Part shown: piece after piece, positions 3,586 through 56,617 of the stretch | Layout: the number at the start of each line of letters is the position of its first letter | Position numbering within the stretch: the stretch's first letter is position 1 | DNA from: Bdellovibrionales bacterium CG10_big_fil_rev_8_21_14_0_10_45_34 | GTDB lineage: Bacteria > Bdellovibrionota > Bdellovibrionia > Bdellovibrionales > 1-14-0-10-45-34 | DNA: 64,000 nt | NCBI GenBank assembly: GCA_002778785.1 | Contig: PEZS01000006.1 | Span: 56,652-120,651 of the forward strand | Direction: 5' to 3' | Translations under genes and position numbers: made by a program | The notes under the pieces: model-generated | Seen by the model: only the letters and a program-made list of their open reading frames with translations | What the model was told of the DNA's origin: nothing | Database searches by the model: none

Positions 3586-4275
3586 TTAAACCTTTTTATT
3601 CTCTTCGGCGCGAGAAGCTCTGAGGTAAAGGGGGTGTACTTCTGTCCAGTTGTGAACTTTCCCAGACGAAAGATCTTTGCAGGCAAGCTCACCTAGACTA
3701 ATGGCGTGAGGGAGGTCACAGCGAGTTTCAAACTGCCCACTGAGGCCGAGAAGCCCCGTCTCCCCAACAACTAAGCAGTTGGAGGGTATATTGGTGCCGA
3801 GTTCTTGAAGACTTAATAAATGCTCTTGCGGGCCCGCTTTCAGCCAGCCACGCTCCGTTCTTTGGTAGGTGCACCGGAAGACTAGTCCCGAGTATGCATT
3901 TAGGACGATGGTACAGTAAGGATGGGTCGCTGGCGTTTTGTTCGCCAATACATCAAAGGTATTTCGACAGATTAACGGGATACCAAGGCCGAACCCAAGC
4001 GACTTAGCTAAATTTACGCCGACTCTTACTCCGGTGAAACTTCCAGGTCCAATATTTACAGCAACGGCATTGAGATCATTGACTTCAATTGAAGCAATCT
4101 TCAATAAGCTTTGAAGAGCCCCCGTGGCCACTTCTGCATGGGATCCCTGCCTGTGCCATGTTATTTCGCTGACGAGCTGATGGTCTCTAAAAAGTGCTAA
4201 ACTGCCTTGAAGAGAGCTGGTTTCAACAGCGACCAACCAGTTGGTTGTAGGAGAGTTTTTTAACTTAGGTCTCAC
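3586..4275 (-). CDS. tsaB: tRNA t6A37 threonylcarbamoyltransferase subunit TsaB
   Basis: A 229-residue ASKHA-fold protein. It begins with the TsaB pattern (LVAVETSSLQGSLALF) and has the conserved VAVNIGPGSFTGVRVGVN segment around residues 80-97, where canonical TsaB has AV..GPGSFTGLR. It serves as the TsaD partner in forming N6-threonylcarbamoyladenosine on tRNAs reading ANN codons. It lacks the metal-binding residues of TsaD, as expected. The start is GTG. The gene follows rseP after nine bases and precedes the MinD-like gene by 24, so it sits in one minus-strand run. Confidence 0.92.
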   Translation of the reverse strand: MRPKLKNSPTTNWLVAVETSSLQGSLALFRDHQLVSEITWHRQGSHAEVATGALQSLLKIASIEVNDLNAVAVNIGPGSFTGVRVGVNLAKSLGFGLGIPLICRNTFDVLANKTPATHPYCTIVLNAYSGLVFRCTYQRTERGWLKAGPQEHLLSLQELGTNIPSNCLVVGETGLLGLSGQFETRCDLPHAISLGELACKDLSSGKVHNWTEVHPLYLRASRAEENKKV

Positions 4276-4284
4276 AACTTACTA

Positions 4285-6015
4285 CTACGACGAAAAGATT
4301 CTTGAAAAATCATTGAATAAAGCAAGAAGCATTAAGCTAAGCAGTAAGACAAGTCCTATTTGTTGGGCGATCTCCATTTTGCGAATACTTAGCGGGGCGC
4401 CTCTCAAAGCTTCGATAGAGAAAAACACGAGATGCCCGCCGTCAAGCACGGGGATAGGAAGCAAGTTAAGAATAAATAGGTTTATCGAAATGATAGCCAT
4501 GATTTTGAGATAAGGAGAAAGGCCCATTTCAAATGTTTTACCCGAGAGTTGTAAAATCATAATCGGTCCGCCGATTGACTTAGCAGAAACCTCTCTTTTC
4601 AAGAGTTTTAAGAAGCTAAGCGCCGTTAATTGCACCCACTCGACGGTGTCATTAACGCTAGCACTTAAAACTTCCTTGATGCCATTGGCCTTCACTATTA
4701 CGGTTACCGGTTCAGCCATTCTTAGTGCGGTCTTAACGCCAATTGCGAAGTTCTTTTCTGTAAAGCCCGCCGAATTAGTTTGCTCGGTGATCTGGGGAAC
4801 CAAGTCGAAAAACATGTTCTGCCCGGCACGTGCCACTTCGACCTTTAGAGGCGCCTGATCAGAATCGTAAGAGCGCACAGCTTTTACAAAGCTTTCCCAG
4901 GAATTCAGGGGTTCGGCATTTACGCTGATCAATCGATCCCACGCTATAAGTCCTGCAGACTGAGCGGCAGAACCTTCTACGACTTCTTCGATAAACAGCT
5001 CCGTGTTGTGAAGACCAATCCACTGGAGGGTATTGGCGTCAAAATCACTTTGGGCAATTTTTTGCGCAATCGCTGCCGGGAGCTCTAAAGTATGAACCAT
5101 TGAGTCTTTGCTTTGTAAATTAGTGAGTTCGAAGTCGACACTAACGGCATTTTGTCCTGACGGGGAATTCTTCAACTTCTCTGCAACAGATTTCGCAAAA
5201 ACTCTTTCTGCCTCAAACCATGACCTTAGATTTGTACCATCTAAAGCGGTGATGGCATCGCCAGACTTTAGTCCTGCTTGCCCAGCCAGGCTGTTGGGGT
5301 CGCTAATCCCAATTTGAGTTGAGATTGCAACTGGCGACAGTCCGTCAATTTGACCAACGTAGTCTCTGGTGCTCATGAGATTAGTGTTTCGCATCTCAAC
5401 GGGCGACACTGTAATAGACCTGCTTGTTAAGTCTCCAGACGTATTCTGCACTGAAAAGCTAATCTGTTTGCCGGCTCTTGCCTCGATGTATTCTTCTATC
5501 TCGTCCCATGCCTTATAAGCGTTTCCATCTACCGCCTGGATAATATCACCCGATCGGAACCCAGCCTCATAGGCTGCCGATAGCGCCGGAACGTCGCCGA
5601 CGTGGTTAGACACAGTTTTTTCGCCGAGCAGGGCGATCACGCCAAAAATAAGGGCGGCAAAAAAGAGGTTCATCAAAGGTCCGGCCAACACGACGGCTAT
5701 TCTTTGAAAAACGGGTTTATGAAGAAAACTATACTGTTTTTGCTCTTCGGGGATATCAGCCGACGGATCATCACCGTACATCTTCACATAGCCGCCAAGT
5801 GGAATCAGAGAAAGGCAATACTCTGTATCGCCAGGCTTATAGCGCCAGATTTTTTTGCCAAAACCCAGACTAAAGACTTCAACGCGAACGCCGTAAAACT
5901 TCGCTACTAGGAAGTGCCCAAGTTCGTGGACGAAAATTAGCAGTCCAAGAAGGACGACAAACGCCAAACCAAATGAGAGAAACTTCTGAAAGCCAAGTAC
6001 AATTAAATCAATCAT
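4285..6015 (-). CDS. rseP: RseP-type site-2 intramembrane zinc protease with three PDZ-like modules
   Basis: A site-2 protease of the inner membrane. The first membrane helix carries the HELGH zinc motif (residues 30-34 from the chosen start) and a C-terminal helix carries LLPIPVLDGGH. The GGYVKMYGDDP segment after helix 1 is also typical of RseP. At about 576 residues it is some 125 longer than E. coli RseP. The excess lies in the periplasmic region, where three PDZ-like segments can be read: AGFRSGDIIQAVDG, AGLKSGDAITALDG and AGLIAWDRLISVNA. E. coli RseP has two. A TTG at 6042 would add nine hydrophilic residues; I prefer the ATG at 6015 because the membrane segment follows directly. The likely substrates are anti-sigma factors or signal-peptide remnants. 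Confidence 0.93.
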   Translation of the reverse strand: MIDLIVLGFQKFLSFGLAFVVLLGLLIFVHELGHFLVAKFYGVRVEVFSLGFGKKIWRYKPGDTEYCLSLIPLGGYVKMYGDDPSADIPEEQKQYSFLHKPVFQRIAVVLAGPLMNLFFAALIFGVIALLGEKTVSNHVGDVPALSAAYEAGFRSGDIIQAVDGNAYKAWDEIEEYIEARAGKQISFSVQNTSGDLTSRSITVSPVEMRNTNLMSTRDYVGQIDGLSPVAISTQIGISDPNSLAGQAGLKSGDAITALDGTNLRSWFEAERVFAKSVAEKLKNSPSGQNAVSVDFELTNLQSKDSMVHTLELPAAIAQKIAQSDFDANTLQWIGLHNTELFIEEVVEGSAAQSAGLIAWDRLISVNAEPLNSWESFVKAVRSYDSDQAPLKVEVARAGQNMFFDLVPQITEQTNSAGFTEKNFAIGVKTALRMAEPVTVIVKANGIKEVLSASVNDTVEWVQLTALSFLKLLKREVSAKSIGGPIMILQLSGKTFEMGLSPYLKIMAIISINLFILNLLPIPVLDGGHLVFFSIEALRGAPLSIRKMEIAQQIGLVLLLSLMLLALFNDFSRIFSS

Positions 6016-29428: not shown

Positions 29429-29605
29429 GGTTTCAGCTGAGACCGAGCAACTTGCGATAATTTTTGTTTAAGTGAGACGCAAAAGATTTGGCTCAATTTG
29501 AGAACGAGCCTATTTACGGCAATAAGTGCAGCGAACAGTGTCGCACTCTGAGATTTCGAACTTGATCGAATCAACTGGCGCCGCGAAATTTCCGATTCGT
29601 CATTG

Positions 29606-31402
29606 ATGGGCCGTATTTTCACAACAGGAATTCTTGGGTTCCTACTTAGCACTTTTTTGCTTTCGGGTTGCTCCAAGGGTGGATCGACGACTAGCTCGGA
29701 GGTTGCCCCCGTCGTATTGAAAGAAGTGGATCCGTGCACGGCTACGACCACCTACTCGAGCGCTGTTACAGTTACGGGATCGGCTAAATACACACGAAGG
29801 GAATTTGAATCGTCCTATCTGGGAGCGACGGGAACTGCTAAAGCAATTCGCTTTGCTGAAATCAGAGTTACAGATGCAGTTGGGTCAGTCGTTCAGTGCT
29901 CACAAACTGACAGTTCGGGTGACTTCTCTTTTCAATTGCCGTTAAATAATCAGACCTACTTAGTATCTGTTAATTCCCGTGGGCTCAATAGTTCCCTTAA
30001 AGCCAGTGTCCTTAATAACCCTACCGACAATCAGTTCTATTCACTTTCTACTTCGGTCGTGGCTGATCAAGACAGAAGCGTCGGTACCTTAACCGCCGAA
30101 GGCGATTCGGCTGACGTGCTTGGTGGTGCGTTTAACATTCTGGACGTGATTGTAAGAGCGAATGAATTCTTGAGAGATAAAGTAGGTTCTTGCTCCGGCT
30201 ATACGGGATGCGCGGCCTTTACGGTTGCCGACAAGGTTTCTGTATTCTGGGGCAAGGGTGTCAACCCAGCCACTTACGTGGGGGGATCAGCGTCTACTGG
30301 TTTAAGCTTTTACCTTCCTGGTAGATCTCAACTCTACATTTTGGGCGGAATTGGCGGAGACGTGGATAACACGGATACAGATCACTTTGATGACAGCGTG
30401 ATAGCCCACGAGTACGGTCACTTCATAGAAGATCTCTATGCGGAAACAGACTCTCCGGGCGGAGCCCATGATGCCAACAGCATTATTGATCCGCGACTGG
30501 CGTGGGGAGAAGGTTGGGCTAATTTCTTTTCTCTGGCTGTAAATGGTAGTTCGACTTATCGAGATTCTTTTGGAAACGTTTCTGGAACTTCACGTGGCTA
30601 TTACTTTAATCACAATTTAGAAAATACAACGAGAGATTACAATTCGGGCGGCACAAGTGGCGAAGGAAACTTTCGTGAGTTTGCTGTAACAAGGGCGCTG
30701 TGGGACCTCATGGATGCACCCGCTGATGCGAGCTTTCCGGGTATGTCTAATGAAGCAAGCGGGCCGCCAACTGGGAATAATTTGTATACACCGTCTTTAG
30801 AAGACGGTGTTCAAGGCAACTTTGCTGAACTGTGGGCTATCTTCTCGAACTCCTTTAAATCTTCGACCTACGCCTTTCGAGACTACGGTCTTTTTATGTA
30901 TTTGTATTCCAATTTTAATAGTCCGTCTTTGACAGGCATGGCGGGCATATACACTGCTGAAAAACAAAAGAACACACGCGCAGACTACGCAGCTGGCTAC
31001 ACTCTTTCTGGCACAGACTGCGGCAGCGTCTCTATCTCGAGCACTGTACCTTCGGGGTCATCGGGGTACGGCTCTGCAGCAGCTGCAGCTAATCAATTTT
31101 ATCGGAACGATTTTTACCTTGTCGATCACCCCGGCGGAGTTATGTCGCTCGCCTTAAGCTGGACAGGAGGACAAGATCTTGATCTCTATGTTTACGGCGA
31201 AGGGTACACCTACGGAAGCAGCTCTTCTGTTGTTGCAAAAAGTGACCGAGTTAACGGAACAGTAACGCCACCGGTGGACTATTCAGAATCGGTATCGCAA
31301 GCGATTGCCGCTGGTAAGTACTTGGTTAACGTAAATCTTTGGTCAGGATCAGGGACTGCCAGTTATAAACTTCAACTAGGGGGGCAATATGTCTGCCCGT
31401 AA
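29606..31402 (+). CDS. Lipoprotein zinc metallopeptidase with PPC-like C-terminus
   Basis: A 598-residue lipoprotein (lipobox LLSGC, Cys22). The N-terminal part (about 50-130) resembles a carboxypeptidase-regulatory/CNA-like beta-module. The zinc site is HEYGH at 268-272 with a downstream GEGWANFF that may supply the third ligand (Glu302), a gluzincin-like arrangement. The C-terminal 120 residues fit a pre-peptidase C-terminal (PPC) beta-sandwich (GGVMSLALSWTGGQDLDLYVY...AGKYLVNVNLWSG). It is probably an extracytoplasmic protease attached to the outer membrane. A TTG one codon upstream is also possible, and no clear ribosome site is seen. Confidence 0.8.
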   Translation: MGRIFTTGILGFLLSTFLLSGCSKGGSTTSSEVAPVVLKEVDPCTATTTYSSAVTVTGSAKYTRREFESSYLGATGTAKAIRFAEIRVTDAVGSVVQCSQTDSSGDFSFQLPLNNQTYLVSVNSRGLNSSLKASVLNNPTDNQFYSLSTSVVADQDRSVGTLTAEGDSADVLGGAFNILDVIVRANEFLRDKVGSCSGYTGCAAFTVADKVSVFWGKGVNPATYVGGSASTGLSFYLPGRSQLYILGGIGGDVDNTDTDHFDDSVIAHEYGHFIEDLYAETDSPGGAHDANSIIDPRLAWGEGWANFFSLAVNGSSTYRDSFGNVSGTSRGYYFNHNLENTTRDYNSGGTSGEGNFREFAVTRALWDLMDAPADASFPGMSNEASGPPTGNNLYTPSLEDGVQGNFAELWAIFSNSFKSSTYAFRDYGLFMYLYSNFNSPSLTGMAGIYTAEKQKNTRADYAAGYTLSGTDCGSVSISSTVPSGSSGYGSAAAAANQFYRNDFYLVDHPGGVMSLALSWTGGQDLDLYVYGEGYTYGSSSSVVAKSDRVNGTVTPPVDYSESVSQAIAAGKYLVNVNLWSGSGTASYKLQLGGQYVCP

Positions 31403-32084: not shown

Positions 32085-32182
32085 ACTTTCGCATTTCAAA
32101 TTGGCCTTCTGTCTAAAAGTAACAAAGTAAGTTGATAAGACTCGAAGATTCTCCCGATAGGTTCGATGACGAGGACTTCACA

Positions 32183-32812
32183 GTGAGAACACCTTTGTTT
32201 AAACTCAGCCGAGCGCTTACCTGTCTTTTAATCTTGCCGAATTGTTCGAGCCCCCAGTTTGTGGTCGACTCTGAACCAAACGGTGCCCAAGTAGTCGTAA
32301 CTTCAGATTCTCACTCCCCCCAAATGATAGGTAGCACACCAATCACAACGTCCCCAAGTGCCTTTGCAAGTGGCAGCTCTTCAACAATTGTAGAGATAAA
32401 AAAGGCGGGTTTTGTTTCAAGACTAGTCCATTTACCCGAAACCACTTTTTCTCGATCTACACATATCAAGGTCAAGCTGACTGAAGATCGGGTGCCAGCA
32501 AGCTGCGAGAATCAGAATTTGGCGGTGCGAGACGTCTCTAGAGGAATTGCCAGGGCTCAATCTTTGATTGCATCAAAGAAAATGGACGAAGCAATGAACC
32601 TGCTTAAAAACCTAATTGCACGTTTTCCAGAGAATCCCGTGCTCTACGATCTCATCGGAAACATCTACTATATGCAGCGTGAACTCCAGTTAGCGTTAAG
32701 TGCTTACAAAAAATCGAATCAGATAGAGCCCGGAAACTCTGAAACAGAAAATATGATTGAGAAAATAAAGCTAATTAGTGGAGATCGATCCCCGGCTGAA
32801 GCAGGAACTTAA
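32183..32812 (+). CDS. PEGA/TPR lipoprotein at the head of the stator operon
   Basis: From the GTG at 32183, which has GAGGA about eight bases upstream, this is a 209-residue lipoprotein with Cys21 in ILPNC. An upstream TTG (32132) would place 17 acidic residues before the signal peptide and is unlikely. The mature part starts with a PEGA-like beta-module (FVVDSEPNGAQVVVTSD...GSTPITTSPSAF), common in envelope proteins, followed by helical TPR-like repeats (SKKMDEAMNLLKNLIARFPENP, QRELQLALSAYKKSNQIEPGN). It lies 22 bases before the motA-like gene and so probably belongs to the same machine as a periplasmic or outer-membrane scaffold. Confidence 0.75.
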   Translation: MRTPLFKLSRALTCLLILPNCSSPQFVVDSEPNGAQVVVTSDSHSPQMIGSTPITTSPSAFASGSSSTIVEIKKAGFVSRLVHLPETTFSRSTHIKVKLTEDRVPASCENQNLAVRDVSRGIARAQSLIASKKMDEAMNLLKNLIARFPENPVLYDLIGNIYYMQRELQLALSAYKKSNQIEPGNSETENMIEKIKLISGDRSPAEAGT

Positions 32813-32834
32813 TTCGGCAACAGGAGAAAGATAA

Positions 32835-33632
32835 GTGGCGTTTTTATTAGGAATTCTTTTAGCATTGACTGCTTTCGCATCGGCACTAATACATCTTGGG
32901 CAATCTGCTTCTTCCTATTTCGATTTTGTAGCCTGCACTGTAGTTCTCGGCGGTACGGTGGCAGTTTCGATAATGGTTTTGCCTTGGCAACAGCGCGCGG
33001 AAATGATCGAGAAATTCAAGTTCGCATTAGGAAGCTCCAAGTTCAATATTAATCAGACCTATATGGACGTGTTGGAAGCGGTTCGGGCCTTACAAGCGGG
33101 CAAAGTTCTATCATTTGAAAAGGGGAGCGACCTTGCACAGCGAGTTCTCTCAACCGCTTTTGAACTAAGGTCGTTGGGGTTTTCAAACGAAGAGATAAAA
33201 AACATCCTTTCTCAAATGATTGTGCAAAAGGCACAGAGAGGAAAAAGAATTGCAGATTCCATAAAGGGACTGAGCAAGTATCCGCCGGCATTTGGGCTTG
33301 TAGGAACAGTTCTAGGATTAGTTAATTTGATGAGGTCACTGTCCGATGGTCTAACTCCAGCCGAAACGGGAGTGGAGATGGCAGTGGCACTTATTGCCAC
33401 ATTTTACGGACTGCTTGTTGCAAACTTAGTAGTGAATCCCTTAGGCGAGATCATATCAAAAAACAACGGTATGGAGATTCGCTGCGCTGAAATGGCTTTG
33501 CGTGGTGCTCTGCTCGGAATGACGGAAACTTCTTTCTTGAAAGCCCGTGAACTTCTTCGAGTTTACTTATCAGACGCCGCAGCTGAAAACTACGACAGAT
33601 CAGGGGCTCAGGTTGTAGAAGGAGCTGCATGA
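32835..33632 (+). CDS. MotA-like stator subunit (non-canonical set)
   Basis: A 265-residue MotA-family protein. Four membrane segments can be read: about 2-22, 32-50, and the pair around PPAFGLVGTVLGLV and VEMAVALIATFYGLLVANLVV. The conserved proline facing the ion path is present in KYPPAFGLVG. The cytoplasmic loop is charged (MIEKFKFALGSSKFN...LSFEKGSDLAQR), as needed for FliG contact. GTG start with AGGAG eight bases upstream. The stop overlaps the motB-like start as ATGA. Sequence differs strongly from the flagellar-type MotA at 55850-56617, so the two are not recent duplicates. Confidence 0.9.
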   Translation: MAFLLGILLALTAFASALIHLGQSASSYFDFVACTVVLGGTVAVSIMVLPWQQRAEMIEKFKFALGSSKFNINQTYMDVLEAVRALQAGKVLSFEKGSDLAQRVLSTAFELRSLGFSNEEIKNILSQMIVQKAQRGKRIADSIKGLSKYPPAFGLVGTVLGLVNLMRSLSDGLTPAETGVEMAVALIATFYGLLVANLVVNPLGEIISKNNGMEIRCAEMALRGALLGMTETSFLKARELLRVYLSDAAAENYDRSGAQVVEGAA

Positions 33633-34351
33633 GTACGAATATGGATCTTATTGAATTCGAAGAGTCTTCTGCCGAGGAGCCTGACTCTGAAGGCACTTGG
33701 GCGATCAGTTACGGTGACATGATCACTTTGCTTTTAGGGTTTTTCGTGTTGTTTTTTTCCTTTGACCCTAGCCAAACAAAACAAGCAGGTGTCACTCAAG
33801 CAATTATCCAGGCAATCAGTACAAATGTAGAAAAGAATTCGAGCGAAAGGTCTCCAGCGGCGCTATCAAAGTTTTCTAGTTCCCGCGAAGGAATCGACGA
33901 AGTTACTATTGAAAAACTGGGTGCCAAGGCATATCAAGTGGGCGCTAAAGTGCTTGTAGAGTTTCCAGGCGTATCTTTTTTCGACTCAGGTGAAACAAGT
34001 TTAACACTTCAAGGTAGAGCAGCCCTTGAAAAATTTGTTGTGAAATACCTGCCGTATGCGGGAGGCCATAATTTATCAATCATGGCCTATACAGATCCCA
34101 AGCCAGTCATCGCGAGCGCAAAGAGGAAATTTCAAGATAACTTGGAACTGTCGGCACTGCGCTCGGTCAGTGCGATGAGGCGACTCCAACATTCAGGTCT
34201 ACCCTTAGATACAATGAGAATTTCAGGCTACGGCGTCAGCGAGTTTAATGAGAGTGAAAAGGGGCAGCTTCCGGAACATCTTAAGAAGTCGGATCTCCAC
34301 GCACTTCATCGAAAAGTATTACTTGTGATTTCGCCGAGAGGTACAATATGA
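33629..34351 (+). CDS. MotB-like stator subunit with altered OmpA-type domain
   Basis: A 240-residue MotB-family protein. The single membrane helix follows WAISYGDMITLLLGFFVLFF, and Asp30 occupies the position of the essential ion-carrying aspartate. The periplasmic OmpA-like domain is recognisable (FFDSGETSLTLQGRAALEKF, LELSALRSVSAMRRL, ISGYGVSEF), but the usual GHTD and NRRVEI peptidoglycan-binding motifs read AYTDPKPV and HRKVLLVI. The anchor may therefore bind peptidoglycan differently or bind another partner. It overlaps the gene on each side by four bases. Confidence 0.88.
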   Translation: MSTNMDLIEFEESSAEEPDSEGTWAISYGDMITLLLGFFVLFFSFDPSQTKQAGVTQAIIQAISTNVEKNSSERSPAALSKFSSSREGIDEVTIEKLGAKAYQVGAKVLVEFPGVSFFDSGETSLTLQGRAALEKFVVKYLPYAGGHNLSIMAYTDPKPVIASAKRKFQDNLELSALRSVSAMRRLQHSGLPLDTMRISGYGVSEFNESEKGQLPEHLKKSDLHALHRKVLLVISPRGTI

Positions 34352-36015
34352 AATTGATCCATCTAATTTTAACTTGTGTGGCTTTTAGTAGCGTCGGATT
34401 CGCTCAAGCACAAAAACATCCAAGAGTACTCGAGTTAGAAGAGAAACTGACAAAAGATGCGATGACCTATCTTAAGGGCAGGTTTCCGAGCTCCCCTTTT
34501 TTGGCAATTGTTCGGGTTGATCCGCTCCATAGGAGCACGTCGGAGACATCAAGAGGTGAAAGACTCCCGTATCTCGACCTCCAAGAAACTGAAATTACGG
34601 ATGAGTGGGATGATCCTTCGTTAAGCATGCATGAGTTGCTGCGTAGGACAACGAAGGTTGAAGTTAAAGTGGAACTTCCAAAGGAGCTTTCTGAAGACAG
34701 ATCCAATGAAGTTAAGGAAAATTTGATTTCATTACTTAGTCTTACGCCAGCAAGAGATGATATAGTCATCATCCGCCGCGACTGGGAGACGACGGGGAAC
34801 TACTGGCTACAGGTTAGCTTTGCGATCGGCGGTTTACTTCTGTTTTTGATTGGTCTTTATTTCATCCTAAGGGCCTCTACATCAAGGATTGCCGATGCCG
34901 TCGTAAATATGAAGCCTAGTGGTAGTGGTGCCGGCTCAAATCTAGCGGGCGCGGCAATGCACAACATGGTAGATCATACTTCGGCACGTTCGGGAGTTCA
35001 GGATTTGAATTTTTCCGATCCCATTCGAATTCGGGAAATGACTGGAGAGATTGTAGGGGCTCTAAGCAAAGATTCCCACTTCCCAAATTTTGAAGCCATG
35101 GTCGAACTTGACGGCTTTTGTGAAAAAGACCAGCGTGCCTTTGGGGCGCTGATAAAGGAATTCCCTATCGAACTCAGAGAAAAACTTTTTTCTCTGAGTT
35201 ATTCGGAGAAGTGGTTCGAGGCTCTAACAAATCCGGGTGATTTAAATCAGCAGGCACTTTCGTTACTTTTAAGGATTCATCGTCTTGAGAAAAGCACGAA
35301 AACAAATCCCCAATGGGAAAGACTATTGATTCAGGCGTGGAGACTTGACGAAAGGCGCTCGGAATTTTTTGCAAAAATGCATGAAACTGAAGCATTTGCA
35401 ATTCTAAGATCCCTGCCAAATTCCATAGCACTTCCGATTGCAAGAGATGTGTTCCCTGGTAAATGGGGATTCCTGCTCGATCTGGAGTCAACGGTAGAGA
35501 GAATAAAAGAACAACGTATTGTGGAGCTTATCGAAATAGCAATAGCATTGAAGTCGCCGCGCGATTTTTCTCAGGTCACCAGGTATAGAAAAGATCGAGA
35601 TCTCTTAAAGTTCTTAGATACAGCCGAAGTTCACGAAGAAAAAGAAGTGTACCGTGCCTTACGTAAAGACTCTATTGTTCATCAATTGCGCCCCCCTTTC
35701 TTTAAGGTACTGGAGGAGCAGACTGCTGAAATAGGGGAATTTGTCGCGAATGTTCCAGTTTCTGATTGGGCGATGGCGTTGTTTAACGTTTCTAAAGCAG
35801 AACGAAAAAACGTGGAGGCAATCTTTAATGAAAAACAGCGATTGTTTTTTGTCGAGAACCTCAAATCCTTCGATGGCGTCCCTCCCAATAAAGATCTCGT
35901 CGGTAAGAAGCGGGCTAGCATTGCAAAATTTTTCAAGGATTGGAAAGAGATACTCGATAAAACAAAGGGCGAAGTCCAAAATGACGACAAGAGCACAGAA
36001 ACTCTCGCGGCTTAA
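34348..36015 (+). CDS. FliF-like ring domain and membrane helix fused to FliG-like region
   Basis: A 555-residue hybrid. After a signal peptide (1-22), residues about 25-150 match the last periplasmic part of FliF: EEKLTKDAMTYLKG opens it, and KVEVKVELPKELSEDRSNEVKENL then LSLTPARDDIVIIR closes it, as FliF ends before its second helix. One membrane helix follows (about 155-175). The remaining 375 residues, placed in the cytoplasm, are helical. The last 90 (about 450-540: PPFFKVLEEQTAEIGEFVANVP, MALFNVSKAERKNVEAIF, NLKSFDGVPPNKDLVGKKRASIAKFF) follow the FliG C-terminal torque domain. FliF's N-terminal helix and first two ring domains are missing. A signal-cleaved N-terminus outside and FliG part inside is the topology a rotor would need. 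Overlaps neighbours on both sides. Confidence 0.72.
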   Translation: MKLIHLILTCVAFSSVGFAQAQKHPRVLELEEKLTKDAMTYLKGRFPSSPFLAIVRVDPLHRSTSETSRGERLPYLDLQETEITDEWDDPSLSMHELLRRTTKVEVKVELPKELSEDRSNEVKENLISLLSLTPARDDIVIIRRDWETTGNYWLQVSFAIGGLLLFLIGLYFILRASTSRIADAVVNMKPSGSGAGSNLAGAAMHNMVDHTSARSGVQDLNFSDPIRIREMTGEIVGALSKDSHFPNFEAMVELDGFCEKDQRAFGALIKEFPIELREKLFSLSYSEKWFEALTNPGDLNQQALSLLLRIHRLEKSTKTNPQWERLLIQAWRLDERRSEFFAKMHETEAFAILRSLPNSIALPIARDVFPGKWGFLLDLESTVERIKEQRIVELIEIAIALKSPRDFSQVTRYRKDRDLLKFLDTAEVHEEKEVYRALRKDSIVHQLRPPFFKVLEEQTAEIGEFVANVPVSDWAMALFNVSKAERKNVEAIFNEKQRLFFVENLKSFDGVPPNKDLVGKKRASIAKFFKDWKEILDKTKGEVQNDDKSTETLAA

Positions 36016-36571
36016 AAGTCCATTTCTTCAGGTTATGGGTATAGTCCTGGGATTGTCTCTGGTCACTATGACCCACGCGAAGGGAAAGCTTCACCTTGGC
36101 GCAGGAGCCTTCAGCTTGAATGCTTCCACGCCCTCAAGGTCAAAGACGATCAGTGGCCCGGGCTCCTACAGTGTCTCTTATCTTCATCCCTTATTTAGGA
36201 AACTGATGTTAGAGGCAGGATATTCAGTAATTATGTCTGAAGGAATTTCTGGAGATATGGGTTTCGGACTTGATATAGGATTAACATTCTATCCACTGAC
36301 AGAAAGTCAGGAATTCGGAATAGAAGAAGACAATGTGAAAGTGAAAATCGATGAAATCTGGAGGCCATTCCTTTCTGGATACTTTCATCAAAGACAGTTT
36401 CAGTCTGTTTCAAGCAGCTATGCCGGATTCGGTTTTGGCGCGGGAATAGAAAGACTGTTTAATGAAAAATATGGCTTATTGGTGAAAGCCCGTTACCAAA
36501 TTTTGGCGGGCCCGCAGTCTTCGAGCGCGAGCAATATAGATTTCTTAATTGGTTTGATGGTGAAGCTATGA
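35981..36571 (+). CDS. Predicted small outer-membrane beta-barrel protein
   Basis: The gene starts at ATG 35981, inside the end of the FliF/FliG-like gene (35-base overlap); the open frame to its left is an out-of-frame shadow. The 196-residue product has a signal peptide (SPFLQVMGIVLGLSLVTMTHAKG) and alternating strands such as LHLGAGAFSLN, LMLEAGYSVIM, GFGLDIGLTFYPL, SYAGFGFGAGIERLF and YGLLVKARYQIL. These suggest an eight-strand barrel. The C-terminus is MVKL, not the usual aromatic residue. Its ATGA overlap with the giant lipoprotein gene suggests it exports, anchors or connects that protein. Confidence 0.7.
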   Translation: MTTRAQKLSRLKSPFLQVMGIVLGLSLVTMTHAKGKLHLGAGAFSLNASTPSRSKTISGPGSYSVSYLHPLFRKLMLEAGYSVIMSEGISGDMGFGLDIGLTFYPLTESQEFGIEEDNVKVKIDEIWRPFLSGYFHQRQFQSVSSSYAGFGFGAGIERLFNEKYGLLVKARYQILAGPQSSSASNIDFLIGLMVKL

Positions 36572-39500
36572 ATGCAAAAGTCCTTCATTCCATATCTCGA
36601 TCGTTTGTAGTTCCACTTTTGGTGGGCCTGGTTTTGGCCTCTTGCAAATCGGGTGGCGGCGGTGGGGAGTCGGCCTTTAGCTTTCTAGAGCCTGAAGTTC
36701 CGCTTCAGAATCAAGATGGCACAATTAAAATTGAAAGTGCCTCCCCCGTGGAGAGTCCTGTAGTTATTGTTGGATCTGCTTCCACAAACTTCGGAATAGT
36801 TGTCAACTCAGAGGCGGGTAATTCCGTGAGTTTTAAGTGGTCGCTAGCAGGTACTCAGGTCGCGAGTACGAGCGTTCCCTTTTACTCATTACAGGGCGAT
36901 CTCGCCTACCCTGGAGTTCAAACTCTCTCAGTAACTGCGACTAACTCGGTAAGCACTGCCACGCATGAGTTTATAATTCGAAAGAACTCCCCACCAAGGT
37001 TATCCTTCTTACAGCCTTCTCAAAGTGGCGGTTCAGTCGCCTGTGGCTCGGGTTCTTTGAATATGTCGGCCACCGGGACAGATGCTGACTCAGATAGTCT
37101 GACTTTCACATGGAAGCTGAATGGGGCAATTTCACCAAGCACACTTCCGGCAACTACGCTTGCAAATTCGTCGTCAGCGACATTTTCGCCAACCTGTGCA
37201 CTTAGCGGAAGCCATACAATATCTCTGGAGGTAAGCGATGGATACGAAGCTACAACCTACTCTTGGGTAGTCAGTGTTGCGGATCCTACGGTCGCAAACA
37301 TAAGTTCGTACTCACCCACGGCAGCGACAATCATTATCCCTAGCACCGGTAATCAAAGTTTTAGCGTCGCCGCGACCGGAAAGGCTCCTTTGTCGTATAG
37401 CTGGAAGTTGAACGGCACATCTATACCGTCAGCAACGACATCCATTCTAAATTTGGCAGCCTCGAGTCTGACGAACGGACCTCATACACTTGTTGTTACA
37501 GTCTCTGATAGCGATAGTTCAGATAGTCACACATTCAGCATTGTAAAGAACTCTCCTCCAGTCATTTCAAACGCGAATCCAGCTTTATCGACGCTCAACA
37601 CCAACTTCCAGACGCTCAAAACTTTTCGTGTCGATGTGACCGATGCCAATTCTGATGCACTCACCTACACTTGGACTCTGGACGGAATCAATCACGGAAG
37701 TCTTTCAGCCAGCACTCCGGCGGGAGGAGCACAGGTCATATTTTCGCCGACCATAGGGCTCGTGGGGAGCCATACTATTCAGTTAGTGGCGAGTGATGGT
37801 GTTGAGACTGCGTCCCAAACTTGGACTGTCAATGTTAACTTCTTTAGCAATGCGTGTAACGATCTTGCTGCTGGGCAAATCTGCACTCTTGTTGGCAAAG
37901 CGGGATTGGGCGATGGCGGCAACCCACAAAGCAGCTCGGATCGTGTAGTTTTCCAGGCAACTCAGGTCGCTCGTGATGGTTCAACAGGATACTTTTTTTC
38001 AGACGCTGTGAATGATTTGATTTGGTATTACAACATTTCTGGAGCAGCAGTCACTAGGCTTGGAATTTCTATTCCTCCAGCGGCAGCTAAGATTGTTGTG
38101 GGCACTGGTGCAGACGGCGCAGGTAGCGACGGGCAGACGAACACGAACTTCAAAATAGCTCAACCGCAGGCAATTGTGTGGGACGCTGCAAACTCTCGCC
38201 TGTTTCTGGCAGACTATCTCAACAATCGTGTCGTCATGTTTGACTCAGCTGGGGTTGGTCGAAGAGTTTTCGGCAACGGAAGCAATGGTAACAATCAGGC
38301 AAATCACACTGATGGGGCAGCTGCCACGACTCATGCCTGCTACCGACCAACAGGTTTGGCGTTAGATTCTGTAAGAGAACGCCTGTATGTTGCGTGCAAT
38401 GAGCATCATTACATTAAGTATGTTGATATTAGTGCCGCCGATCTAGAAGACTGGACGGCAACAGTTTTACTCGGAAGAAAAAACGGATCGGGCACAATCT
38501 CAGGGGGCAGTGAGGACGGTGTTATTGGTACTTCAGGTTCAGCAGCAAGAGCAAATAGACCGTGGGATATCACTCTTGATCATCAGGGCAATCTTTACTT
38601 TTCGGAGTATGCTGGATGCCGTGTGCGGGTTATCAATCTTAGCGGGGCAGGGAAAACCTATTTTGGCGGAGATGTCTCTGTAAGTGACGGCAGAGTAGGG
38701 AGTCTCTTTGGTGTTTATAACAGTTGCGATACAACTCTCGGAGCAAGAACGTCTCTGAAACTAAATAGACCTCGAGGAGTCGCTCTTCATCTGGACGGCT
38801 CTACACTCAAGGGATTTTTTGTTGCGAGTACGGATCACCACCGCGTTCTATACATCAACCAGTCTGGGGCAACTGCGCAGTACGGCTCAAAGCAAGTACT
38901 CGATAAGCAGGGTCAAAATATATTTGGAAATGGTACGGCAGATTACAACGGCCATGGGCTTTCTGGTTCTTTAACTTATGTCTCCTCACCAATGGGTATT
39001 GATTATGACTCGGCAGGTTCGCGCTTGATAGTGGCAGATACGGGCAACTTTCGCCTAAGGGGGCTAGATATCAGTGTTCCTAACGGAATAGTATCTCAAA
39101 TTGCAAAAGGAGTTTCTAAAGCTGGATTTAGCGGTGATGCGGATCAAGCGGCAACCGCGGTTGAAATGAGTCAACCTTCAATGATGAGTGTTGATCGCGC
39201 CAATAATCTTATGTACTTCGGTGATGCCGGTAACGGGCGTATCAAGACAGTTGACTTATCAACGGGTCTCGTCAAAACCGCGCTGGGTGGCGGTATTGGT
39301 AACGCCACAGTAGAGAACGAAACTCCGCTTGCTGTCTTGAGTCGGGCTATTCGGGGAATTGCTCTTGTAGGAAGCGATCTCTTATACGCAGATCGCAACA
39401 ACAACAACTGCATGGTGAGATTTTGGAATCGATCAGGCGCTGATAAGGTCGAGTTCAATTCACTTGTAGAAAACAACCGAGTCAGGACAGTTCTGGGCTC

Positions 39501-40221
39501 CTATGGTGGCTGCACCGGATGGGTGGCCGGAAATGAAGGAGCACAAGCGAACTCCGTTACTTTGGATGATTTTGAAGGTATGGCCGTACGCTCTGGAGAA
39601 TTGATTGCAGTGCTTTCGGTAAACCACTGCCTGGTAAAAGTTGCACCTGGAGGAACCCTAAGTTCTTTTGTAGGTAAATGCGGTACGGCCGCAAATGTGG
39701 ACGGAGACATCTCATCGGGTCTTGTGCGTTTGAGATCACCAGTTGGATTGAACGAAGATCCGAGGATTGCGGGAAACTACTTTATAGTAGACGCCTCGGA
39801 TCAAGGTACCAGCTACATAAAGTACCTAAATCTTTCCAGCTCCAATGTGACGATAGCTAGTAGTAGCGTGCCGCCCAATCAGATTATGACTGTGATAACA
39901 ACGGCGGGATACTCGACAGGAGTGGCGGCTTTTGACAACCAGATCTGTTACACGAGCGGACAGCCTGGGAGCGGCGCCAACGGTGCTCACCACGTTATTT
40001 GCATTAATAGGGACGACTCTCTTGGCAATACAACAATGCGTGCTGGACCAGCGATGGGGCCCATCCGCGGAGGTAACCAGTTATCAACAAACCACGAAGG
40101 GATATCTGCTTCAAGTGCCCTTATGTTTGCTCCGTATGGGTTAGACTTTGACAACAGCGGCAATCTTTACATCACCGAACAAAGTAACCACGTCATTCGA
40201 AAAGTGAAACGCTGGTGGTAA
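36568..40221 (+). CDS. Giant lipoprotein: Ig-like modules plus NHL beta-propeller repeats
   Basis: A 1217-residue lipoprotein (lipobox LVLASC, Cys26, followed by a glycine-rich tether). About four Ig/PKD-like beta-sandwiches occupy residues 45-430 (repeated motifs SLTFTWKLNGA, LSYSWKLNGT, LTYTWTLDG). The rest is NHL-type propeller sequence. I count about twelve blades with a P.G(I/L)..D....L...D....R pattern, e.g. PTGLALDSVRERLYVA, PWDITLDHQGNLYFSE, PMGIDYDSAGSRLIVAD, PYGLDFDNSGNLYITE, enough for two six-bladed propellers. These folds bind proteins or glycans. As last gene of the stator operon, it is a candidate surface-exposed output or adhesin of the machine. Confidence 0.82.
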   Translation: MNAKVLHSISRSFVVPLLVGLVLASCKSGGGGGESAFSFLEPEVPLQNQDGTIKIESASPVESPVVIVGSASTNFGIVVNSEAGNSVSFKWSLAGTQVASTSVPFYSLQGDLAYPGVQTLSVTATNSVSTATHEFIIRKNSPPRLSFLQPSQSGGSVACGSGSLNMSATGTDADSDSLTFTWKLNGAISPSTLPATTLANSSSATFSPTCALSGSHTISLEVSDGYEATTYSWVVSVADPTVANISSYSPTAATIIIPSTGNQSFSVAATGKAPLSYSWKLNGTSIPSATTSILNLAASSLTNGPHTLVVTVSDSDSSDSHTFSIVKNSPPVISNANPALSTLNTNFQTLKTFRVDVTDANSDALTYTWTLDGINHGSLSASTPAGGAQVIFSPTIGLVGSHTIQLVASDGVETASQTWTVNVNFFSNACNDLAAGQICTLVGKAGLGDGGNPQSSSDRVVFQATQVARDGSTGYFFSDAVNDLIWYYNISGAAVTRLGISIPPAAAKIVVGTGADGAGSDGQTNTNFKIAQPQAIVWDAANSRLFLADYLNNRVVMFDSAGVGRRVFGNGSNGNNQANHTDGAAATTHACYRPTGLALDSVRERLYVACNEHHYIKYVDISAADLEDWTATVLLGRKNGSGTISGGSEDGVIGTSGSAARANRPWDITLDHQGNLYFSEYAGCRVRVINLSGAGKTYFGGDVSVSDGRVGSLFGVYNSCDTTLGARTSLKLNRPRGVALHLDGSTLKGFFVASTDHHRVLYINQSGATAQYGSKQVLDKQGQNIFGNGTADYNGHGLSGSLTYVSSPMGIDYDSAGSRLIVADTGNFRLRGLDISVPNGIVSQIAKGVSKAGFSGDADQAATAVEMSQPSMMSVDRANNLMYFGDAGNGRIKTVDLSTGLVKTALGGGIGNATVENETPLAVLSRAIRGIALVGSDLLYADRNNNNCMVRFWNRSGADKVEFNSLVENNRVRTVLGSYGGCTGWVAGNEGAQANSVTLDDFEGMAVRSGELIAVLSVNHCLVKVAPGGTLSSFVGKCGTAANVDGDISSGLVRLRSPVGLNEDPRIAGNYFIVDASDQGTSYIKYLNLSSSNVTIASSSVPPNQIMTVITTAGYSTGVAAFDNQICYTSGQPGSGANGAHHVICINRDDSLGNTTMRAGPAMGPIRGGNQLSTNHEGISASSALMFAPYGLDFDNSGNLYITEQSNHVIRKVKRWW

Positions 40222-55114: not shown

Positions 55115-55849
55115 CTAACGGACAATGATGACTTCCGTCCGGTTGTTGCGTTCTTTTGAGGATTCGGGGTTTCGAACGAGGGGTTTGTTATCTGCATAAG
55201 CGGCCATAGATATTTTCTCTATAGGAAAACCGCTAATTTCAACAACAAAACGAAGAAGGCTTGTGGCCCGTGCAGAAGTGAGATTCCAAAGATTTCCGAC
55301 TGCTTTAGAAAAACGCGTGTTATTGGCGGCATGACCTTCAACAATAATTTGTTCGGCTCCTTGCACGAGAATTGCCAAAATGGTTTTTAACGACTCAAAA
55401 ACTTCGCGGCGAAGTTTTTCATTTTCGCTCAAAAAAAGCATCTCGTTGTTAAAGGCAATGTGCAATCCTTGGTCGTCGCGGTATATGCCAACAATTATTT
55501 CGTCTAACACTTCCTTTTTGACTGCGCTTGCAAGCTGAGTGCGGATTTGATCTTCGAGCTCGGCTCCAATACGCCCCCTTGGGAATAAATTTATCGGTGG
55601 AGGTATAGGGCTTCCTAATGGGTCAAATCGATTGTGATCGCCTTGTCCTGAAGTGCCAGGAAGCTGCACAAGAGCAGCGAATGCTGCTCGAATGGATTCT
55701 TCAAACTGTTTTTGCTTCTCCTCATCGTGGGTGGATGTGGCATAAAGTACCGTGAAAAAAGCAAAAAGAAGAGTGATGAAGTCTGCATAAGAGACAAGCC
55801 ATCTCTCTAAGTTGGGCTCTTCATCGTGCGACCGACGTTTGCGATTCAT
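55115..55849 (-). CDS. motB: Flagellar stator protein MotB
   Basis: A 244-residue MotB. The conserved WLVSYADFITLLFAFF segment carries the ion-binding Asp23. The OmpA-like peptidoglycan-binding domain covers about 130-244 (FLSENEKLRREVFESL, IIVEGHAANN, NLTSARATSLLRFVV, NNRTEVIIV). GHAANN takes the place of GHTDxx. It is one base after motA and forms the canonical flbD-motA-motB run. Confidence 0.94.
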   Translation of the reverse strand: MNRKRRSHDEEPNLERWLVSYADFITLLFAFFTVLYATSTHDEEKQKQFEESIRAAFAALVQLPGTSGQGDHNRFDPLGSPIPPPINLFPRGRIGAELEDQIRTQLASAVKKEVLDEIIVGIYRDDQGLHIAFNNEMLFLSENEKLRREVFESLKTILAILVQGAEQIIVEGHAANNTRFSKAVGNLWNLTSARATSLLRFVVEISGFPIEKISMAAYADNKPLVRNPESSKERNNRTEVIIVR

Positions 55850-56617
55850 TTATGTTCGGCCTTTTGAGCGACTTTGACTCTTATAACTCTCTAGCTTTTC
55901 TCTTAAGAGATGGGGGTTAATACCTGCAAGAATGCCAAGTGCGCCTTCGAGGATCATTTCTTTTGCAATGGACTCTTCTTGAACTTTTCGCTTTAGCTTG
56001 TTGCCAAGTGGGATAAAGAAAAGATTCGCAGAGCCAATACCGTATACCGTGGCCACAAAGGCGATCGCGATACCAGAGCCAAGCTTAGCTGTATCCGTAA
56101 GATTCTCCATAACATGTATCAAGCCGAGCACCGCACCGATGATACCTATTGTAGGAGCAAACCCTCCCGCCTCGGAGAAAACTTTTGCACCGGCAATTCG
56201 GCGCTCTTCGCTCATTGCGATTTCCGTTTCAAAAACGCTTCGAATGTGCGCCGGGTCTACGCCGTCAATAACGAACCGAAAAATATTCTGCATGTAAGAA
56301 TTAGAGAACTTCGGTATGCGAGACTCCAAAGCCAAGATGGATTGCTTACGGGCAATATGTGCTGACTCCGATATTTCCTCAATGAGACTATCGATATCGA
56401 ATTCTTTGGAATCCTTGAAAGCTCTTGGCAGTAAATTACCAGCCATTCTAAGATCAGCAGGTGGAGCACTGACAAGGACGGCTCCAAGCGTACCGCCAAA
56501 CACGATAATGGCAGCCGTGAGTTGTATCAGCGAGTTCACATGACCGCCTTCAAGAATTTGCCCAAACAGAATGGCTCCAACCCCTAAAACAACTCCAAAA
56601 ATACTTGCTCTATCCAC
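55850..56617 (-). CDS. motA: Flagellar stator protein MotA
   Basis: A 255-residue MotA of the Bdellovibrio/Aquifex/Bacillus type, without the N-terminal extension of E. coli MotA. It starts MDRASIFGVVLGVGAILFGQILEGG, a hallmark. The conserved proline is in GGFAPTIGIIGAVLGLIHVM, and the charged cytoplasmic loop (about 75-150) contacts FliG. It pairs with MotB to form the ion channel driving the flagellum. Confidence 0.95.
   Translation of the reverse strand: MDRASIFGVVLGVGAILFGQILEGGHVNSLIQLTAAIIVFGGTLGAVLVSAPPADLRMAGNLLPRAFKDSKEFDIDSLIEEISESAHIARKQSILALESRIPKFSNSYMQNIFRFVIDGVDPAHIRSVFETEIAMSEERRIAGAKVFSEAGGFAPTIGIIGAVLGLIHVMENLTDTAKLGSGIAIAFVATVYGIGSANLFFIPLGNKLKRKVQEESIAKEMILEGALGILAGINPHLLREKLESYKSQSRSKGRT

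Follow-up and report, generated by a model that had tools for sequence, protein, structure and literature searches.

The window analysed here, a stretch of 64,000 nucleotides from a Bdellovibrionales genome, carries six open and co-directional reading frames between positions 32183 and 40221 of its forward strand (Table 1), with a gap of 22 bases between genes 1 and 2 and overlaps of 4, 4, 35 and 4 bases at the four junctions that follow, exactly as the initial annotation had described them. An alternative TTG start of gene 1 lies upstream at 32132, in a frame that is also open, and promoter and terminator scans stayed below shuffled expectation. The ordinary motA-motB pair that had been noted elsewhere in the window is indeed present, at 55115-56617 on the reverse strand, and is of flagellar type; a further MotA-type gene lies on contig C9. 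Upstream of the operon and on the same strand, positions 29603-31402 encode a lipoprotein of 599 aa whose HEYGH motif makes it a possible metalloprotease.

Table 1. Features of the six-gene operon, in window coordinates, with the evidence for each assignment.
Feature	Position	Strand	Evidence
Gene 1, TPR lipoprotein with weak PEGA domain, 209 aa	32183..32812	+	Pfam matches; orthologue order
Gene 2, MotA-class stator subunit, 265 aa, ends -GAA	32835..33632	+	PF01618 (MotA_ExbB) 1e-18
Gene 3, MotB-class stator subunit	33629..34351	+	MotB_plug 2e-10, OmpA 5e-5
Gene 4 (P0004), putative FliF(RBM3)-FliG hybrid rotor subunit, 555 aa	34348..36015	+	AlphaFold, Foldseek, profile matches
Gene 4, periplasmic RBM3-like ring-building domain, residues about 22-150	34411..34797	+	Strand order, Foldseek FliF S-ring matches, hhalign
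Gene 4, single transmembrane helix, residues 152-187	34801..34908	+	Alignment, model
Gene 4, cytoplasmic FliG-like superhelix, residues 225-545; torque-domain equivalent about 456-547	35020..35982	+	Model, Foldseek, hhalign
Gene 4, C-terminal Ala-Ala	36007..36012	+	Last residue Ala in 40/40 homologues
Gene 5, small outer-membrane beta-barrel candidate, 196 aa	35981..36571	+	OMP_b-brl 0.003; C-terminal Phe in orthologues
Gene 6, surface lipoprotein, PKD/Ig stalk and NHL propeller, 1217 aa	36568..40221	+	Pfam matches

Genes 2 and 3 had been read as MotA-like and MotB-like, and their Pfam matches bear this out. Gene 2 reaches up to 6e-26 against flagellar-stator models, yet stays under the equivalog cut-offs, and in the MotA tree it belongs to a clade of its own on the flagellar-stator side, with the TolQ/ExbB paralogues set apart at 100/100. 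The product of gene 3 has a membrane aspartate (in SYGDM), a plug-like linker and an OmpA peptidoglycan-binding domain, and residues D30, D156, N171, L174 and R178 are invariant in the family alignment. With a flagellar-class channel, the membrane aspartate of MotB and the peptidoglycan-binding domain all found, sequence and modelling support a flagellar-class stator that MotB would tie to the peptidoglycan.

As a single sequence, the product of gene 4 had no match in Pfam and none in the PDB, and its likeness to FliF and FliG is visible only through the family alignment and the structure model. AlphaFold2 run on the family alignment (pLDDT 85.9) predicts a signal peptide, a periplasmic alpha-beta-beta-alpha-beta domain with a conserved LPY...DEWDDP loop, a long membrane-spanning helix and a helical cytoplasmic region. 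When this model was compared with the PDB by Foldseek, FliG structures came top, followed by FliF RBM3/MS-ring structures, and the best 26 matches were all FliG or FliF; no E-value was better than 8e-3, a modest level that probably reflects flexibility of the superhelix, and the FliG C-domain alone superimposed at 1.9 Å over 87 columns with a TM-score of 0.78. In the same register as the structural match, hhalign paired residues 456-547 with FliG 240-329 (pairwise P 0.04-0.02) and residues 119-194 with FliF 388-476, the end of RBM3 (pairwise P 0.0015). In addition, the family profile matches the FliG_C domain of a Synergistota FliG at 3e-5, and its best four PDB sequences are FliG (E 0.0014-0.004). 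By these comparisons and the model, gene 4 is truly FliF/FliG-like, so that the hybrid proposed in the initial annotation has the structural similarity to FliF and FliG on which that proposal had been staked. The hybrids of this kind, here called type A, have a FliG_C torque domain according to structure and profile, as well as RBM3 and the C-terminal membrane helix that follows it in FliF according to model and Foldseek; RBM1, RBM2 and the first membrane helix of FliF are missing, as the model has one periplasmic domain and one membrane helix. Gene 4 is thereby supported as encoding a predicted rotor subunit in which a single membrane helix connects a periplasmic RBM3 to a cytoplasmic FliG that includes the torque domain, and MotAB and the hybrid very probably form a stator-rotor pair.

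The remaining genes point towards the outer membrane and the surface. Of the PEGA/TPR lipoprotein proposed for gene 1, the TPR part stands (TPR_2 1.3e-6, above cut-off), the PEGA match lies below the cut-off (E 0.12), and the lipobox, LPNC, is poor in the window protein and strict in 22 of 39 orthologues; the orthologue is the first operon gene in 37 of 40 loci. For gene 5, proposed to be a small outer-membrane barrel, the domain match is only weak, and a terminal phenylalanine, the usual signature of outer-membrane barrels, is found in 24 of 39 orthologues; its frame overlaps that of gene 4 in 35 of 38 loci. The Ig/NHL lipoprotein seen in gene 6 is confirmed by matches to NHL (1.4e-10) and PKD (3e-7) and by a lipobox in 27 of 34 orthologues. 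Gene 6 adjoins gene 5 in most type-A loci, not in all; it is sometimes inverted and not always present. Large lipoproteins beside hybrids combine NHL and PKD/Ig in type A; at locus L055 FG-GAP accompanies 14 Ig repeats, and at L251 and L252 it accompanies fn3. A stalk with a propeller head is a recurrent neighbour of the hybrid, with a varying propeller family.

Of the 291 genomes searched in the phylum, 56 have a relative of P0004, almost always in single copy. Among the 40 type-A neighbourhoods examined, of 10-20 kb each, the order TPR lipoprotein, motA, motB, hybrid and barrel is kept in 37, the three exceptions being a contig end, a locus from which genes 1-3 are absent and one in which genes 1 and 5 have moved. 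Neighbouring genes mostly overlap by 4 bases, and the loci have diverged to 20-45% identity, a distance at which the kept order of genes 1-5 is, judged from sequence, far beyond chance; the joint conservation that the initial annotation had demanded is therefore found for these five genes. That the window hybrid lacks matches in single-sequence searches might suggest a flagellar duplicate in decay, or a cluster assembled by chance and without joint function, but frames have stayed open and order has been kept across the phylum at this divergence, with only one matched hybrid ORF carrying an internal stop (G053), which already refutes such a reading and leaves it a negligible probability. A scan of GTDB species genomes with the MotB alignment located the operon in named Bdellovibrionota MAGs (Bdellovibrionales, Bacteriovoracaceae, Halobacteriovorax sp. 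and Pseudobacteriovorax sp.), and the loci that it returned from other phyla had only motA and motB near the match.

The gene 4 profile also leads to divergent hybrids with the same partners, namely MotA, MotB and a TPR lipoprotein. Type B hybrids, of about 580-630 aa and present in 23 genomes, have FliG_C above the cut-off, usually FliG_M too, and match FliG in the PDB at 3e-31. They are found in complete genomes of one genus, such as G073, a single contig of 3,782,950 bp, where the cluster (L236, 7420-14190) runs motA, motB, an opposite-strand barrel candidate, a PEGA/TPR lipoprotein, a barrel, a 325-aa protein and the hybrid. We presume G073 to be B. bacteriovorus HD100; the motA of its type-B cluster at 2.92 Mb and another motA at 0.13 Mb fit the tags bd3021 and bd0144/5, so that, given this presumed identity, the cluster is probably motAB2 of HD100. 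A genome paper counts a second FliG in HD100 (PMC3539863), which is probably the type-B hybrid. Shorter proteins resembling the periplasmic half of the type-B hybrid lie just upstream of it at L244 (6849-8021), L245 and L246, and are perhaps, by this resemblance, a second ring subunit. At L251 (1805-8247) and L230 (7237-9045), the type-B hybrid is directly followed by a protein of roughly 1560 aa, with fn3 and FG-GAP in L251, and has no adjoining motAB. Type C hybrids (750-809 aa) have two RBM-like repeats as well as FliG_M and FliG_C above the cut-off, and in some type-C loci a small gene lies between hybrid and motA. At L262, positions 3894-4391 of the reverse strand encode, in that place, a 165-aa cyclic-nucleotide-binding protein (PF00027 6e-18) that ends in -AA, and a control of the type-C system by cyclic nucleotides is possible in light of this neighbour. 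A second, reordered system, composed of a TPR lipoprotein, a barrel-like protein, a hybrid, MotA and MotB, is present in a Pseudobacteriovorax MAG (L227, 2297-7316).

Searches with the type-B profile were extended to other phyla. In 249 Pseudomonadota genomes there were no hybrids among the matches listed, only ORFs of FliG length, up to 396 aa. In Fidelibacterota (formerly Neomarinimicrobiota), 79 of the 120 genomes sampled have a separate FliG of about 310 aa that is distinct from the flagellar FliG, and the 12 neighbourhoods examined in this phylum have the gene order TPR gene, motA, motB, FliF-like gene and FliG. The two FliF-like proteins scanned have PF08345 (the RBM3 region) above the cut-off and no other FliF domain, and the one separate FliG scanned matched FliG_N, M and C; no outer-membrane or surface part was recognised in this phylum. 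FlhA is above the cut-off in 28 of the 120 genomes and missing in 59 of the 79 carriers of the split system, absences of which some may be explained by incomplete MAGs, but hardly 59. Unfused rotor parts in the same order and without the flagellar export gate are the strongest evidence for a non-flagellar machine. An adjoining set of motA, motB, RBM3 and FliG, fused or split, and a TPR gene is common to types A, B and C and the split version.

In a FliG tree with 17 flagellar rows from three phyla, in which type A sits on long branches, all flagellar FliGs fall on one side at 99/99, and in the MotA tree types A, B, C and split form one clade each and stand jointly opposite the other MotAs, with weak support (89/71). 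EHPQ, the FliM-binding motif, is present in 16 of 16 flagellar FliGs vs 0 of 29 of types B, C and split, and this loss in the relatives implies that there is no FliM/FliN switch; type A is too diverged to be aligned at this site and reads EFP at the closest site. A basic residue (K/R) occupies the position of FliG R281 in 40 of 40 type A, 10 of 11 type B and 12 of 12 split sequences, with type C departing from the conserved state, and the position of D289 is acidic in 11 of 11 type B sequences. The FliGs of this system have, as far as alignment indicates, lost the FliM-binding EHPQ and mostly kept the charges of the torque helix.

Another feature shared by stator and rotor is the C-terminus. 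The last residue of the hybrid is alanine in all 40 aligned rows and the tail preceding it is hypervariable; in the window, MotA ends in -AA at 33624-33632 and the hybrid at 36007-36015. Across the loci compared (L039-L078), most hybrids and 22 of 39 MotAs end in this way vs 2 among the other ORFs of more than 200 aa. Type-B MotAs mostly end in -AA; those of the split version do not. The ATGA overlap was rejected as the cause of the MotA ending, since MotB has this overlap too and its terminal residues vary. C-terminal degrons of the ClpXP type are known from ssrA and from Caulobacter substrates, and by analogy we would guess that the common -AA is possibly a shared degron of this type, through which a ClpXP-type protease might remove stator and rotor together.

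Counting all types, at least 80 of the 291 Bdellovibrionota genomes carry a hybrid, and 78 of these 80 counted carriers also have a flagellar FliG, with carriers making up 2 of the 35 FliG-negative genomes (P 0.001, a statistic that ignores kinship). The presence of two FliG_N matches per genome was rejected as a sign of two FliGs, as a single gene accounts for both, through its N and M domains. Given that carriers are almost all flagellated, the main rival to a separate machine is a flagellar accessory, in which the hybrid would add a further ring, as rotor or scaffold, to the ordinary motor or its surroundings and MotAB would supply a second set of stators there, so as to increase torque or to connect the motor with the outer membrane and sheath. 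Morehouse and colleagues are said to have observed in 2011 that deletion of any motAB pair slows swimming. The literature ranks motAB2 of HD100, which is probably this cluster, among the flagellar stators, and its expression is altered in fliL mutants, but FliL bound MotB3, and not MotA2 or MotB2, in a two-hybrid assay (PMC11323537). Furthermore, most flagellated members of the phylum have no hybrid, the operons in the neighbourhoods examined neither hold nor adjoin flagellar genes (export apparatus, rod, hook), the FliM motif is lost in the relatives, and the 59 Fidelibacterota genomes have the operon and no FlhA, which together make an accessory role unlikely in our view. The non-flagellar stator-rotor machine claimed in the initial annotation is thus strengthened by the jointly conserved architecture and by the Fidelibacterota without FlhA and weakened by the flagella of nearly all Bdellovibrionota carriers, and we consider it likely that the machine is not part of the flagellum.

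Taken together, we favour, with a probability of about 0.6, the interpretation that the products of the operon form a rotary machine of the envelope which is driven by ions, is built from flagellar-motor parts without being a flagellum, and operates a surface lipoprotein. The gene 4 subunits would assemble into a ring, ion flow would turn MotA, and MotA would push the FliG_C domains and thereby turn the ring, whose periplasmic part would transmit the motion, through the TPR lipoprotein, to the barrel in the outer membrane and to the propeller lipoprotein at the surface. The latter might serve as an adhesin or as a track element in surface movement or in contact with prey or surfaces, and we suggest only tentatively that the machine drives a surface adhesin or gliding. 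The barrel and lipoproteins, and a tight operon without chemotaxis genes, would also suit a Tol/Exb-like energy transducer, in which MotAB and the hybrid would relay movement driven by ions to the outer membrane and would serve its maintenance, export or the display of lipoproteins, and neither motility nor contact. However, MotA lies on the side of the flagellar stators and not of TolQ/ExbB, a FliG torque domain whose charges are conserved implies that a large ring rotates, and the patchy presence in 56 of 291 genomes speaks against housekeeping, so that such a transducer seems quite improbable.

The proposed rotary machine shares with the flagellar motor a MotAB-class stator, an RBM3-like ring domain and a FliG-like torque domain with its charges mostly kept, but its operon lacks export gate, rod, hook, filament and FliM/FliN, the type A hybrid has FliF and FliG fused and dispenses with RBM1/RBM2 and the first FliF membrane helix, the relatives lack EHPQ, and outer-membrane and surface partners have been added. 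To our knowledge, FliG has not been described in a rotary role other than in the flagellum, and a search of open-licence papers found neither such a role nor a description of such a surface machine. The Agl-Glt system of Myxococcus combines an ion-driven, MotA-related motor with TPR proteins, an outer-membrane barrel and a surface adhesin, and resembles the present, predicted system in all of these; its motor (AglRQS), however, is TolQR-like and works without a FliG/FliF rotor, whereas the MotA described here is of the flagellar class. GldLM of the Bacteroidota type 9 secretion system (T9SS) is a 5:2 ion-driven motor that works a surface adhesin, as the present machine would be, but is not homologous to MotAB, and the window proteins matched no Gld/T9SS families in Pfam or NCBIfam. 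Zorya has a MotB-like subunit, and its ZorB model matches at 3e-11; a reading as a defence system was rejected, as this match is one to MotB in general, ZorA had no match, and rotor and surface parts stand here instead of ZorC/D/E. A natural FliF-FliG fusion has been described in Chlamydia, a bacterium not thought to be flagellated (Bergeron 2016, PMC4768692), but that protein keeps an SctJ-like part, has no RBM3, joins only FliG_M and comes with no described MotAB operon (PMC4768692), whereas the hybrid reported here has RBM3, FliG up to its C-domain, and MotAB.

If our interpretation is right, flagellar stator and rotor parts would also power a different envelope machine, which would bear on the origin of the flagellar motor. 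More speculatively, Bdellovibrionota and Fidelibacterota might share a class of rotary machines in which a MotAB stator and an RBM3-FliG rotor, its FliG line separate from all flagellar FliGs, move surface propeller lipoproteins with neither export apparatus nor rod nor filament, and which might be the motor, so far missing, behind gliding or prey contact in Bdellovibrio-type predators. A 2026 review notes that the machinery with which Bdellovibrio glides has yet to be identified (PMC13104615), and the genes of this operon, of which a type-B version is apparently present in HD100, are concrete candidates for it.
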